A stretch of DNA of 9,656 bases from Deltaproteobacteria bacterium (GTDB taxonomy: Bacteria > Bdellovibrionota_F > JAHFAK01). A model generated the notes under the pieces. It had not been told where the DNA came from. It saw only the letters and a list, made by a program, of their open reading frames with translations, and did not search any database. Below, piece after piece: positions 138-7,265 of this stretch; positions within the stretch are counted from its first letter, which is position 1; each line of letters begins with the position of its first letter. Location: the NCBI GenBank assembly GCA_023250585.1, contig JAHFAK010000094.1:1-9656 (forward strand), given 5' to 3'. A program made the position numbers and the translations under genes.

Positions 138-230
138 CTCAGTAAATGGGAAAAATGAAGATGGATCCCGCGGCTTGACCGCGGGATCCATCTTCATAGA
201 GAAATTACTTAATCTCTCCCATTAACTGAG
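138..230. repeat. composite palindrome with nested inverted repeats
   Basis: The inner part is a perfect 19-bp inverted repeat (155-173 against 179-197) with loop CTTGA and a GC-rich core CCCGCGG. Outside it lies a second inverted pair, CTCAGTAAATGGGA (138-151) against TCCCATTAACTGAG (217-230), matching at 13 of 14 positions. The two arms differ by a length asymmetry: about 19 nt (198-216, itself ending in AGAGA and TCTCT) separate the pairs on the right but only 3 nt on the left. It is therefore an inverted duplication centred on the GC palindrome. It resembles dispersed GGATCCCGCGG-type palindromes I have seen in other genomes, but copy number cannot be judged here. Confidence 0.65.
151..197 (-). 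terminator. probable intrinsic terminator downstream of chrA
   Basis: Read on the minus strand, the 19-bp perfect stem with loop TCAAG is followed immediately by a run of T (complement of 151-155) and then CCC. This is the form of a Rho-independent terminator. It lies about 137 nt beyond the chrA stop codon and nothing else on that strand intervenes except a short possible gene remnant. The stem is longer than a typical terminator and belongs to a repeat-like palindrome, so termination may be a secondary use. Confidence 0.5.
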
Positions 231-306
231 CTGGTACTAAAATTAATATTACACTACGCCTATTCTCACCTTTTCTTATTTGCTCATGAATATCTGGATG
301 AAAGTA
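205..306 (-). pseudogene. possible remnant of an OmpA-like C-terminus
   Basis: A 33-codon open stretch directly preceded by an in-frame TAG (307-309) and ended by TAA (205-207). It has no start codon near its beginning. It reads YFHPDIHEQIRKGENRRS followed by VILILVPAQLMGEIK. The charged turn plus NRR followed by a hydrophobic strand recalls the last beta strand of OmpA/MotB peptidoglycan-binding domains, where an NRRVEI-like motif is usual. This is a weak resemblance over a short stretch. Its last codons form the right outer arm of the composite palindrome. It could equally be chance open sequence. Confidence 0.18.
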
Positions 307-1558: not shown

Positions 1559-4432
1559 CTATAGACCTAATTGAAATGGCGTTTGAGTTCCCGTTGCTCC
1601 GCTACTACCTAATTTTCCGTAAAAATTATCTCCCCAAACCCATAAGGTACCATTACTCTGCAATCCAAGTGAATGTGATGAACCAGTAGAAACAGCACTC
1701 CATGTTGTCCCACTTCCAATCTGAACGGGGCTACTTCTATTTGTCACTGTACCATCACCTAACCGATAGCTAATGCCATTTTGTCCCCATGCCCATAGTG
1801 TACCGTCATTCTTTATCGCGAGGGTATGATTCGCTAGAGGACCAATAACTCCAATAATACTCCACGTTGAGCTTCCGATCTGAACTGGACTCGTCCTTTG
1901 TGTCGTTGTACCATCGCCTAACTGTCCATAAGTATTATCGCCCCAAGCCCATAGTGTACCGTCACTCTTTATCGCTAATGTATGACTTGTTCCAGCCACA
2001 GCAAGACTCCATGTTGCAGATCCAATCTGTACTGGACTTGTCCTATCAGTACCCGTTGTTCCATCACCTATTTGACCATAGCCATTATATCCCCATGCCC
2101 ATAACGTACCATCACTCTTTATTGCCATGCTATGTGCATACCCTCCAGAAATCTTACTCCAATTCGTTCCACTTCCAATTTGGACTGGACTCAATCTCGA
2201 AGATGTTGTTCCGTCACCTAATCGTCCATTACCATTATTACCCCATGCCCACAATGTACCATCGCTCTTTAACGCAAGGGAATGTTGACGACCTGCAGAA
2301 ATAGCACTCCATGTTGTCCCACTTCCAATCTGTATTGGACTACTACTATCGTTAGTTGAACCATCGCCTAATTGACCATAGTTGTTTCTTCCCCATGCCC
2401 ATAACGTACCGTCGCTCTTTAACGCAAGCGTGCTTTCATCACCAGCAGAAATAGCAATCCACGTTGTTCCACTTCCAATCTTTTTTGGAGTACTTCTAGT
2501 TGTCGTTGAACCATCACCTAATTGACCATAGTTGTTTCTTCCCCATGCCCATAACGTACCGTCATCTTTAAGCGCCACTGTATAATCACCACCTCCATCA
2601 ATTTTACTCCATTTTTCTGTGTCACATATATCGCCAACTCCATCAGCATCGGTATCGGTCTGCGTTGCATTCACAACGAGCGAACAGTTATCGCTCGTAT
2701 CTAGAATTCCATCTCCATCATCATCCGTATCGCAGCTATTTCCCGTTCCATCACTATCGGTATCTGTTTGTGATGCATTCGAAACTAATGGACAATTATC
2801 AGTGACGTCAAGAACTCCATCAGCATCGTCATCAAGATCACATACGTTACCAGATCCATCGCTATCTGTATCAAGCTGATCAGCATTGGCTATTAATTGG
2901 CAGTTATCGCTCGTATCTAGAATTCCGTCTCCATCATCATCCGTATCACAGAGATTACCTATTCCATCATTATCTGTGTCTAAAAGAATAAGATCAAAAA
3001 TTTTCGGACAATTATCTGATGCATCCGAAATTCCATCGCCATCGTCATCGCTATCACACTCATCTCCTAATCCATCACTATCAGTATCTAACTGATTTGC
3101 ATTTATCGTTAATAAACAGTTATCTCCTGAATCACTTATTCCATCACCATCGTCATCGCTATCGCAAACATCTCCTGACTTATCACCATCTGTATCAGTT
3201 TGATTTGCATTCGCCGCTAATGGACAATTATCTGATCCATCAGCTATTCCATCACCATCGTCATCTGTATCGCAAGCATCTCCAGATTTATCAGCATCTG
3301 TATCGACCTGGTCTGCATTCGCTACTAATGGACAATTATCCAATGTATCTGCTTTCCCGTCGCCATCATCGTCAGTATCGCAGGCATCTCCTGACTTATC
3401 ACCATCCGTGTCAGTCTGATTTGCATTCGCTACCAATGAACAATTATCTGATCCATCGGCTATTCCATCACCATCGTCATCGGTATCACAGGCATCTCCT
3501 GACTTATCACCATCTGTATCGACCTGGTCTGTGTTTGCGACATTTAAACAATTATCTATATCATCAGCTACTCCATCACTATCCTCATCATTTGTTCCAT
3601 CTCCTTCATCCACATCGCACGCGTCACCGATTCCATCTTCATCATTATCAGCTTTTGTTATATTGATTACCGTGGGACATTTATCATCTTCAAGCTCATC
3701 ACAAATATTATTGTTATTTGTATCACTACAACTCAATACTGTATCAATTGCATCGCCTAAGTTTGCTTCTACTTCATTGACATTGATTATCCTATAAGGG
3801 TTATTTTCTGTTGTAATTAAATAAACATACCCATCTCGATTCATGAGGACTTTTCCCAGATCAAGAGTATTTCCACTTTTCTGCCATAGATATTGTTTAT
3901 TATCCCATTCAAATGTTGCAAGGATATCACTTACTACTCCTTCATCAGTAGTGACTTCTACGACAAATTGTAAACTCGCTAAATACTTTAATGCTACGGT
4001 AATATTTATTTTTCCTTCGCCGAGTGACACTGTTCCTAAATCAACTACTGTATCTTTTTTTTCTATTTGATTCTTAAAGAGTAAAGATCCTTCTAGAGCG
4101 AATTCCGTACCGGCAGCATGCACTCCCAATACAACATCGCTTCGAGAAATGATTCCTGCTTTACTTGTATCATCGCCAATTTCATACTGAGTCTTTGTTA
4201 CCCCTTCTTTGTAGAGCCTTTCGAAAAGTACATTGTATTCATAATCTGAAAACTCTGCTGCTACTTTTGATCCGTCAAATGTAATTGAATAGGATATTTC
4301 ATCATCGGCTTTAAAATTTGAATCAGAAGACGAAGTTGGAGGGGCTTCATTATTACCTACATTATCTTCCAAATTACACGCTGCCAAGGTAATAAAGCAT
4401 AATAATATTAATATGTTAAGTAACCTTTTCAT
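1559..4432 (-). CDS. lipoprotein with thrombospondin type 3 repeats fused to a seven-bladed RCC1 propeller
   Basis: A 957-residue exported lipoprotein. Residues 1-19 are a signal peptide with a canonical lipobox LAAC, the lipidated cysteine being C19. A Ser/Pro/Asp-rich tether (20-45) leads to an unrecognised, probably beta-rich domain (about 46-230). Residues about 235-604 are TSP3-type repeats: the cysteine of each DNC motif falls at 294, 331, 367, 403, 439, 475, 511, 547 and 583, a 36-residue period, with DTDxDxxGDxCD and DDDGDG acidic loops that bind calcium in known family members. Residues 605-957 carry seven DGTLWAWG-type RCC1 motifs at about 50-residue spacing (tryptophans 628, 678, 728, 778, 828, 880, 931), enough for a complete seven-bladed beta-propeller. 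The start is backed by a purine-rich ribosome site (GAGGGGG, complement of 4435-4441) five or fewer bases from the ATG. The likely role is calcium-stiffened presentation of a binding propeller on the cell surface; the ligand is unknown. The gene stands 76 bp upstream of chrA with no obvious functional link. Confidence 0.88.
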   Translation of the reverse strand: MKRLLNILILLCFITLAACNLEDNVGNNEAPPTSSSDSNFKADDEISYSITFDGSKVAAEFSDYEYNVLFERLYKEGVTKTQYEIGDDTSKAGIISRSDVVLGVHAAGTEFALEGSLLFKNQIEKKDTVVDLGTVSLGEGKINITVALKYLASLQFVVEVTTDEGVVSDILATFEWDNKQYLWQKSGNTLDLGKVLMNRDGYVYLITTENNPYRIINVNEVEANLGDAIDTVLSCSDTNNNNICDELEDDKCPTVINITKADNDEDGIGDACDVDEGDGTNDEDSDGVADDIDNCLNVANTDQVDTDGDKSGDACDTDDDGDGIADGSDNCSLVANANQTDTDGDKSGDACDTDDDGDGKADTLDNCPLVANADQVDTDADKSGDACDTDDDGDGIADGSDNCPLAANANQTDTDGDKSGDVCDSDDDGDGISDSGDNCLLTINANQLDTDSDGLGDECDSDDDGDGISDASDNCPKIFDLILLDTDNDGIGNLCDTDDDGDGILDTSDNCQLIANADQLDTDSDGSGNVCDLDDDADGVLDVTDNCPLVSNASQTDTDSDGTGNSCDTDDDGDGILDTSDNCSLVVNATQTDTDADGVGDICDTEKWSKIDGGGDYTVALKDDGTLWAWGRNNYGQLGDGSTTTRSTPKKIGSGTTWIAISAGDESTLALKSDGTLWAWGRNNYGQLGDGSTNDSSSPIQIGSGTTWSAISAGRQHSLALKSDGTLWAWGNNGNGRLGDGTTSSRLSPVQIGSGTNWSKISGGYAHSMAIKSDGTLWAWGYNGYGQIGDGTTGTDRTSPVQIGSATWSLAVAGTSHTLAIKSDGTLWAWGDNTYGQLGDGTTTQRTSPVQIGSSTWSIIGVIGPLANHTLAIKNDGTLWAWGQNGISYRLGDGTVTNRSSPVQIGSGTTWSAVSTGSSHSLGLQSNGTLWVWGDNFYGKLGSSGATGTQTPFQLGL
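1562..2620 (-). repeat. seven tandem RCC1 blade repeats (about 150 bp each)
   Basis: Each unit encodes about 50 residues with the pattern H/TLALKSDGTLWAWG, then YGQLGDG, then SPVQIGSG. At DNA level two neighbouring units are identical for about 47 bases (2367-2413 and 2517-2563, exactly 150 bp apart), pointing to recent duplication or gene conversion. The last unit is the most divergent (NGTLWVWG, no GDG), as often seen at the closing blade of a propeller. Confidence 0.85.
2621..3700 (-). repeat. tandem 108-bp thrombospondin type 3 repeats
   Basis: Nine full units of 36 codons (one of 37), preceded by a degenerate unit beginning KCP. Each encodes DNCxLxANANQxDTDxDxxGDxCDxDDDGDGI or close to it. 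Several units share long identical stretches at DNA level, for example around the GGCATCTCCTGACTTATCAC segments near 3382 and 3492. Unit 6 (cysteine 475) has lost the NANQ segment in favour of KIFDLILL. Because the unit is a whole number of codons, gain or loss by recombination keeps the frame and the downstream propeller. Confidence 0.85.
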
Positions 4433-4475: not shown

Positions 4476-4589
4476 TATTATTTAAACAATTACTAGTGCC
4501 CTATGTCACATAACAACCTAACATCATGATTTAATTCAATATTATACCCAATTAAACTGTTTGTAACAGCTCAATAAATGGGGGGAGTA

Positions 4590-4702
4590 AGGGTGAAGGT
4601 ATGTTCTAAAAAAGAATTTCTATCGACGTCGCTTCCATAATACTATTAAGAACAGGAAAGCGCGTTCGATATAAATACTTTTTTAGAACATACCTTCACC
4701 CT
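4590..4702. mobile_element. MITE-like element with perfect 25-bp terminal inverted repeats
   Basis: The arms at 4590-4614 (starting AGGGTGAAGGTATGTTCT) and 4678-4702 are exact reverse complements over 25 bases. Inside them, 4616-4636 continues to pair with 4655-4676 with one mismatch and a few bulges, leaving a loop of about 18 nt (4637-4654). Nearly the whole 113 bp can therefore form one long hairpin. Size, terminal repeats, intergenic position and lack of coding capacity fit a miniature inverted-repeat transposable element. I find no clear target-site duplication: flanks GGGGGAGTA and CATAACTTG do not match. A bidirectional terminator is less likely because the stem is AT-rich and the flanking genes point away from it. 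Confidence 0.6.
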
Positions 4703-4753
4703 CATAACTTGAGGGATTACAACAGTTTTTTATTGATATAAAGGTTATTGCTC

Positions 4754-4781: not shown

Positions 4782-7265
4782 ATGGAATTGTATATGTACA
4801 TGAAGTATCCTCTACGACATCTCTCTATAATTTTTATTTTTTCAGTAGTATCCATTCACTGTAGTATATTTGATCCTATAACAAGAATTGGAAATACAAA
4901 AAATACCATCCAAGAAGTACCTGGAACAAACCCAGACGATGAAATACCTGTGCAGTTGAGCGTACGTTCAACTTCCGAGGAAGTAATCCCCGGATTATTA
5001 GGGAAACGTCCACTATGGAATTCAAGTGGCACCGATGATCTTTATATTGGTTTAATCCAAGAAAAATATTTAATCGAATCATCCTTTGGATCAAGTATTC
5101 CATTCGATCCAAGCACCTGCGATCCATTTATCTTTTCAAAACTAGTGTATGATGAAACAATTCCTGTCTCAGTTTGTCCGGGAAGTTATTTTTTCGCTTT
5201 AGTTCAGAGAGGAGAAGCACAAGACTTTTCCAATTATACTATTATATCTTTGAGCGCAACACCCATTGAAATAGTCACGCCATTAAGCGACAGCATATTT
5301 CAATTAGATATAAGTAAAAATGGCATTATGTATATTTTAAATTATACCGATCTTGTAAATGCTCATGTAATTACTGCTGTTGGAGAAGGTAAAAACTTAG
5401 AACGTACTTTAGATGGGGAATATGATGCAACGATAGATTTTGAAGAATATGCAGGAAATAAATCCGACTATAGTTCATTTGTGATGGACATCATTCAAGA
5501 GACAAATATCTATGGTGAACTTGATCATGGATTACGGGCAGAATCTTCTTTTACGAGTTCGATAATGCGAGGGACTATTGATCCTTTAAGTGAGGATAAT
5601 TGTTTCAGATTCAATCTTGAATACCGCACTCCTTGGGGAGGAAATTATTCCTGCGAAAAAATGATAATGCTCAATGCTCCCTTTGCCTGTTTTGCTGACA
5701 CATTAGATTATGATGCACAAGGAGCCGATATTATCGGATATGTACATGTTATAGAAACAATTTCCGGAAAGAACTGTCCCTTGATGTTAGAAAATCAATT
5801 TCTTAACACAACAGGAATTTTAAAATTAACTCAAAAAGGATCTATCGATAAAAATTATACCGAGGCAGAATCTCTTATAAGTAAAGTAAGCACCCCTATA
5901 CAAGTAGCAATGGATACAAAAACATTTACGGTACCATACGACAACCTTAAACTTTCAAGCTGGTGCTATGATTCACACAATCACTTCAAAAATATGTCGA
6001 CAAAAAAACTTCAAGACCTGCTTTACAATGCAGGCTTATCAGAAAGCCCTGCCGCCTTTGAATTAAAAGGCGAAGTAGGTGTCATGGATGGAGTTGTCTC
6101 TCTACATTTTGGATCCCATACCCAAACGCTTACGTTAAAAGGCAACTTAGGATACGCTTCTGCGTGGAAAGAAGTACCAGGGGATAGATATAAAATCGCA
6201 TTTGGAGCTTATACTTCAGAGAGCGTTAATGATCTACCTCTTATCAATATATATATGGATGTTTCTGATACTGCAGAAGATACTCTCCCTTATTGTGTAT
6301 CATATATAGCCATTACGAATGATCCGCTCGTACAAAAAGATATTTCAACCGAGCATCCTCCAACCGGCGAACTCTTAAAAGATAAACTTATTGATGTAAC
6401 AAAATGGAAAGAAAGCGCTGCTTTCACTATAAGTGGAGATTGTAGCGCTTATTCCGATCTTCTCAATCTTTACAATAGCTCGACTGTGTATGTTAATGCT
6501 CAGAAAGATACCAAAGGATATATACAACTTTCATTTAAAGACACAAATGGAAATACGCTATTTCAAGATAGTCGCTTTATTGGAGATACCTATCAATACA
6601 ATGCACGAGAGGGAAATAATTTATATACGATCGCATATACGAAGGATTATTTTTCGTATAGTCTTCGCATTCATGATTATTATACCCAAACGAATGGATG
6701 TAATCTTTCGCTCACGATAGCATCTCCTTATCAATTTGACTACACTCCTCTATCCCTTTCTGACTTACATTACACAGCGGCAGTTGTACCAAGCACCGAA
6801 AGTGATTATCCAGACTATTGGATTGATTCGCATTGTACTAAAGAAGACTTTCAGGCTTTAATCGGCACCGATACATTCTCAGAAGATATCATCTTAGATA
6901 TTTATATGTATGCAGAAACTAAAACTGCGTCTGTTGTTATTGCCATAAATACAAGCGATGATGACGTTACCAATGACAAAATTATTGGAGACAGCGCAGC
7001 GATTACTTTAAATAGTCATGATATACTTGAAGGCAAAACGACATACAGCTTTGAAAATTTTGATTCCCCTTTGACTTTGTCTTTAACATTATCGGATGGA
7101 ACTGAAAGCACAGGAGATGTGAGTATATTTGGATTAGCCACAATTGACAGTCAATCTTCTACAGAAAATAAACAATCATTTTTTATTGCCTATAATCGCT
7201 ACGATACGATCTATAACAATTACTGTTCTTTGTATGTATATCCTTCTCTCATTACAAAAGAATAA
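4782..7265 (+). CDS. large putative lipoprotein of unknown function with cysteine-bracketed modules
   Basis: I do not recognise a family. The protein has up to 827 residues. The hydrophobic stretch LSIIFIFSVVSIHC (ending at C27) looks like a lipoprotein signal peptide with a loose lipobox. Starting at the third methionine (4800) gives the more typical MKYPLRH N-terminus and a 20-residue signal; the first ATG is used here as the outer limit. The mature protein is secreted in character, rich in Ser, Thr, Asp and Tyr, and probably mostly beta. From about residue 380 it shows three similar modules, each with one cysteine near its start and one near its end: C395-C505, C554-C640 and C685-C815. Each pair brackets a hydrophobic-strand pattern with YxIAY/F shortly before the second cysteine. 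Earlier cysteine pairs (113/132, 274/291, 303/332) suggest further disulfides. It faces fusA tail to tail with one base between the stop codons. Function unknown; surface or periplasmic location is inferred. Confidence 0.75.
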   Translation: MELYMYMKYPLRHLSIIFIFSVVSIHCSIFDPITRIGNTKNTIQEVPGTNPDDEIPVQLSVRSTSEEVIPGLLGKRPLWNSSGTDDLYIGLIQEKYLIESSFGSSIPFDPSTCDPFIFSKLVYDETIPVSVCPGSYFFALVQRGEAQDFSNYTIISLSATPIEIVTPLSDSIFQLDISKNGIMYILNYTDLVNAHVITAVGEGKNLERTLDGEYDATIDFEEYAGNKSDYSSFVMDIIQETNIYGELDHGLRAESSFTSSIMRGTIDPLSEDNCFRFNLEYRTPWGGNYSCEKMIMLNAPFACFADTLDYDAQGADIIGYVHVIETISGKNCPLMLENQFLNTTGILKLTQKGSIDKNYTEAESLISKVSTPIQVAMDTKTFTVPYDNLKLSSWCYDSHNHFKNMSTKKLQDLLYNAGLSESPAAFELKGEVGVMDGVVSLHFGSHTQTLTLKGNLGYASAWKEVPGDRYKIAFGAYTSESVNDLPLINIYMDVSDTAEDTLPYCVSYIAITNDPLVQKDISTEHPPTGELLKDKLIDVTKWKESAAFTISGDCSAYSDLLNLYNSSTVYVNAQKDTKGYIQLSFKDTNGNTLFQDSRFIGDTYQYNAREGNNLYTIAYTKDYFSYSLRIHDYYTQTNGCNLSLTIASPYQFDYTPLSLSDLHYTAAVVPSTESDYPDYWIDSHCTKEDFQALIGTDTFSEDIILDIYMYAETKTASVVIAINTSDDDVTNDKIIGDSAAITLNSHDILEGKTTYSFENFDSPLTLSLTLSDGTESTGDVSIFGLATIDSQSSTENKQSFFIAYNRYDTIYNNYCSLYVYPSLITKE

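Follow-up and report, generated by a model that had tools for sequence, protein, structure and literature searches.

Several groups of bacterial repeats resemble the element described here, which we call family A. Correia/NEMIS, ERIC, RPE and QMITE2 are, like it, 100–200 bp long and mostly intergenic, with terminal inverted repeats, target duplications and a long stem-loop (PMC2229807, PMC10969869). REPINs, too, form hairpins scattered between genes, and their stems carry compensatory changes (PMC3116915). Insertion sequences of the IS66 family, together with the MITEs derived from them, have in common with family A an 8-bp target duplication and termini that start with GTAA, the ends of IS66 starting with GTAAGCG (PMC11946415). 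Finally, homogenisation of the arms and inversion of the spacer, both of which are found in family A, have been described in quasipalindromes, where they arise when replication switches template from one inverted repeat to the other (PMC8604942, PMC8794818).

The hairpin and the element that carries it

Our window, the whole stretch of 9,656 nt that was analysed, contains an inverted repeat with arms of 45 nt each (4590–4634 and 4658–4702) that are 89% complementary and separated by a 23-nt spacer. Pairing is perfect over the outermost 24–25 bp. The RNA fold of the hairpin has an energy of −62.7 kcal/mol, compared with a mean of −26.95 for shuffled sequences (z −9.4), and none of 200 shuffles equalled it. 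The hairpin is thus real and hard to explain by chance, as the initial annotation had argued for a 113-bp hairpin with perfect 25-bp inverted ends. It was also correctly placed in the gap of a divergent pair of lipoprotein-like genes, with ATG codons at 4432 (minus strand) and 4782 (plus strand). The gene to the left (1559–4432, minus strand) codes for a lipoprotein-like protein of 957 aa with nine thrombospondin type 3 (TSP3) repeats and an RCC1-type propeller; a TSP3-rich protein resembling it is found on C60 (L090 777–2240). The 827-aa lipoprotein-like product of the gene to the right (4782–7265, plus strand) had no match in Pfam.

The 113 bp (4590–4702) make up only the hairpin core of a larger repeated unit. 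Alignment of the copies defines a unit of left end, hairpin core and right end, about 157–158 bp long. In the window it spans 158 bp (4563–4720, plus strand), with bounds given by an 8-bp duplication and by where the similarity of the 40 copies to one another stops, starting with GTAACAGCTCA and finishing with GAGGGATTAC. It consists of a left outer end that is common to the copies (4563–4588; GTAACAGCTCAATAAATGGGGGGAGT, family consensus GTAAYRGCTCAGTTAATGGGGGAGT), a left hairpin arm (4590–4625), an inner segment with the loop (4626–4666; CCATAATACTATTAAGAACAGG), a right hairpin arm (4667–4702) and, from the alignment of copies, a right outer end (4703–4720; family consensus ATAACTGAGGGATTAC), all given on the plus strand. 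The two arms are inverted repeats that covary with each other across copies, and the inner segment, which occurs in both orientations in the family, is in the ‘+’ orientation here relative to the outer ends. On either side lie the target-site duplications AACTGTTT (4555–4562) and AACAGTTT (4721–4728), identical at seven of eight bases with one mismatch.

Across the 40 copies, 247 of the 320 letters in the 8-bp flanks match, compared with at most 135 in 20,000 shuffles. Left and right flanks match at 77% of positions within a copy and at 28% between unrelated copies, and the signal peaks clearly at a length of eight, with little or none at other lengths. Terminal inverted repeats are present as GTAAYNNCTCAGTTA at both ends; they are imperfect, with 71% identity over 15 bp within a copy. 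At 157–158 bp, the element is below the length of any transposase gene. Short, without coding capacity and present in dispersed copies with terminal inverted repeats and a target duplication of fixed length, family A is almost certainly a MITE with 8-bp duplications and, because these duplications are unambiguous, one moved by a DDE-type transposase. By its size, its GTAA ends, its duplications and its 40 intergenic copies, it is a non-autonomous transposable element of the DDE type. The original suggestion of a MITE thus stands on the 40 copies with their 8-bp target duplications, although its ends had been misplaced: the 25-bp inverted sequences taken for transposon termini are the hairpin stem, the true ends lie outside the 113 bp and, because of this mistake, the duplication was overlooked and reported as not visible. 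An integron attC site was also considered, but the 8-bp duplications and the scattering of the copies, which form no arrays, spoke against it.

Distribution of the family and its possible transposase

The host genome (2.24 Mb in 164 contigs; assembly 97% complete) contains the 40 copies of family A at about 82–100% identity over the aligned part, so that the further copies expected of a mobile element are present. They are intergenic or lie at gene ends, and in no case is a long reading frame clearly disrupted. By type of gap (divergent, tandem or convergent), the copies are distributed 15:15:6. The divergent gaps, with 15 of 36 copies, account for 42% of intergenic bases, and an apparent excess of copies in them, considered as a promoter bias, was gone after weighting by intergenic length. 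An effect on either of the neighbouring promoters, as had been proposed, is therefore unsupported.

No copy of the element was found in 40 other genomes; in the set searched, the phylum is represented by the host genome and by one more, from a different family. Searches with the hairpin core in genome-contig and viral-contig collections, and with the element in plasmid and phage collections, gave no match, although these scans may not cover the genome from which the window comes or a very close one. As no collection yielded a match, no relative of the element was found outside the host genome. A single copy conserved in distant relatives, which the initial annotation had named as the outcome that would speak against a MITE, was not what was observed. 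Its conjecture that the family could be new also holds: family A is a MITE family that is new but of a known type, found in this one genome. The EF-G of the host is closest to that of Spirochaetota MAGs (about 65%), a loose placement.

We searched the genome for the source of the transposition activity. The 97%-complete assembly lacks PF03050 (IS66), and no transposase of PF00665 (rve-type), PF00872 (IS256-type) or PF12762 (IS1595) was found in it. Two genes with PF01609 (DDE_Tnp_1) are present, on C116 (intact) and on C103. The intact element on C116 was rejected as the source, as its ends (CCTAGCGTGAGTTTATT) differ from those of family A, and so was the gene on C103, which has no flanking matching ends. 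Allowing up to two mismatches, we found the MITE end sequence at about 119 sites in this genome (control, 10). These belong to family A, to a second family (B) and to remnants of 29–82 bp, several of them with duplications, which are described below. Among 100 of these 119 ends, none bounded a long element, and a transposase gene flanked by the same termini, which had been suggested as a possible find, was not found in this genome. Two facing ends 2.1 kb apart (C60:2730–4876) looked autonomous; they enclose ordinary genes, rplU-like and rpmA-like (by eye) and lipoprotein-like, and the right end is part of a 43-bp remnant. We infer that an IS66-like transposase, since lost or missing from the assembly, acted on the element in trans; we do not assign family A to IS66.

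Other repeats in this genome are related to family A or adjoin it. Family B, a second MITE family of about 35 copies (mostly 87–98% identity), shares the GTAA/CTCAGTTA ends of family A as well as 8-bp duplications, and its own interior consists of two palindromes around GGATCCCGTGGTCAAGCCACGGGAT; its copies include window positions 138–237 (internally deleted) and, for example, C14:27182–27342 (L091 583–743). A third repeat, D, has about 30 copies (mostly 93–99% identity), at about 1–138 in the window and also at L238–L249. One of its ends nearly always adjoins the CTCAG/CTGAG at the end of a MITE, as though insertion were specific to MITE tips or to sites beside them. In addition, remnants of 29–82 bp (C60:4834–4876, C101:6376, C27:4797, C34:7237 and C42:14332–14413) keep the MITE ends and, for the most part, undamaged 8-bp duplications but have no complete hairpin core, a state that would fit palindrome deletion.

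Homogenised arms and inverted inner segments

Arm identity in family A is 98.0% within a copy versus 76.7% when arms are shuffled among copies, and the arms match perfectly in 28 of 37 copies. Even indels are matched in both arms (C66, C22:19984, C56:11344 and C158). The inner stem, normally asymmetric (CGTCGC/GCGCGC), has become symmetric towards one form in C58 and towards the other in C66 and C87:3112. As an internal control, the outer ends of these copies, compared over 15 bp, are 70.7% identical within a copy versus 69.5% shuffled. Ten arm mismatches remain, counted without C140, C61, C122 and C40; on the loop-forward strand none of them forms a G-U pair, on the opposite strand five would do so, and the remaining five are non-wobble, numbers that are too few to weigh.

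The inner ~39 bp can point either way with respect to the outer ends, which are fixed: ‘+’ in 23 and ‘−’ in 17 copies (binomial p 0.43). In the closest pair of copies (C7:3732 and C146:3278), which are 0.8% apart in ends and arms and have different target duplications, the inner segments are exactly inverted. On a tree of ends and arms, orientation changes 14 times versus a mean of 12.8 for shuffled labels and is not clustered, a count that is indicative only, because support for the tree is weak (3 of 36 inner branches starred). The well-supported branches alone force at least four changes. The inner segment has turned repeatedly along the family tree.

Target duplications provide a clock, being identical at insertion and then expected to drift freely. 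They differ at 4.6–5.9% of sites, compared with 0.8–1.0% in the arms of the same copies, a five- to six-fold lower divergence (Fisher p 2e-4 and 6e-6); the figure for duplications is biased down, against post-insertion correction, by the choice of copies with recognisable duplications, and a few duplications that may be misplaced by a base bias it in the other direction. Since the arms have diverged less than the duplications, they appear to have been corrected after insertion.

Both products expected of template switching, and described for template-switched quasipalindromes, are seen in family A: copy-specific matched arms, indels included, and an inverted inner segment. We propose that, after insertion, the hairpin core would evolve through template switching by DNA polymerase. 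As a replication fork crosses the palindrome, the nascent strand may fold back or jump to the opposite strand and, having switched, would copy one arm from the other. We favour this process over recombination between the arms with moderate confidence; no host function is needed to explain the hairpin core. The length of the flipped segment, about 39 bp, counts against template switching, as the spacers reported for yeast are 2–5 bp.

It is rather unlikely, although deserving of some weight, that homologous recombination or gene conversion, between arms or between dispersed copies, homogenised the arms of this MITE and turned its loops. The same products could come from gene conversion or from RecA-type recombination between the arms, and the palindromic core can be aligned with another copy in either orientation. 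Moreover, C140 and C61 have arms unlike each other within the copy, as if from exchange between copies, which suggests that such exchange, or misassembly at repeats, does occur. However, arms of only about 36–45 bp are short for RecA pathways, and inter-copy exchange alone leaves unexplained why arms match each other in a copy-specific manner.

Selection on a transcript, with the hairpin kept as an mRNA-stabilising hairpin, RNase III site or terminator and with compensatory changes in its arms, is very improbable. The covariation is indeed very strong and the fold stable, stem-loop transcripts recur among bacterial MITEs (PMC2229807, PMC10969869), and the compensatory changes reported in REPIN hairpins were read as selection (PMC3116915). 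Yet under such selection one would expect wobble intermediates, a loop that stays constant and no indels matched between the arms, and none of these three expectations is borne out. In 28 aligned, gap-poor copies with 36 stem pairs (1008 cells), 21 of the 36 pairs have changed on both sides, with 110 double-changed cells, versus 0 of 1008 cells with a one-sided (G-U) change, so that the stepwise compensation of structured RNA is not seen. A control with a slid structure gave 2–4 double-changed pairs, compared with the 21 of the true structure. Indels are matched in both arms, and the loop is inverted about half the time. Furthermore, there is no terminator-like site, no bias towards convergent gaps and no match in the window to a structured regulatory RNA family in Rfam, and the window element, because it lies between divergent genes, is probably outside both transcripts. 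We are confident that the arms were homogenised at the DNA level and not through selection on RNA.

Least probable of all is that the MITE is mobilised or replicated via a hairpin or snap-back intermediate, with core inversion and arm remaking built into its life cycle rather than being accidents of host replication: new copies would be born with perfect arms and random loop orientation, in keeping with the near 50:50, unclustered orientation and the near-perfect arms of most copies, but the fixed outer ends take no part, the 8-bp duplications indicate ordinary DDE integration, and the arms, which on this view would diverge after insertion as fast as the duplications, have not done so.

Family A among known hairpin elements

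Covariation in a stem is commonly read as strong evidence that an RNA structure is under selection. Family A, with its ~40 copies, is an example to the contrary from nature: here DNA copying by itself is the most likely origin of the strong covariation. The two cases can be told apart by matched indels, inversion of the loop, target duplications as a neutral clock and the lack of wobble intermediates. These same signs could be applied to other repeat families, such as REPINs, ERIC and Correia, in which covariation may have been interpreted as selection. If template switching is indeed the process, the copies of family A constitute a natural record of replication slipping between DNA strands. 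Our search of the literature found no report of such a DNA-level record of arm copying in MITEs, which is weak evidence of its absence.

Family A differs from Correia/NEMIS, ERIC, RPE and QMITE2 in having asymmetric outer ends around a palindromic core that evolves separately. Set beside the described features of these hairpin MITEs, it also stands apart by its homogenised arms and a loop inverted across copies. REPINs are composed of two REP sequences and are associated with RAYT tyrosine transposases, whereas family A has the 8-bp duplications and GTAA ends of DDE elements, and the duplications argue against a REPIN. Of the terminal sequence of IS66 it shares only the GTAA, which is followed by CAG, TGG, TCC or TGC and not by the remainder of GTAAGCG; it carries no passenger gene, and its host genome is without PF03050. 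Lastly, studies of quasipalindromes have dealt with separate events in unrelated inverted repeats, whereas here ~40 copies of one mobile element are compared. What is unusual in family A is the clarity of this record, in which the copies come with an internal control, their outer ends, and with a clock, their target duplications.
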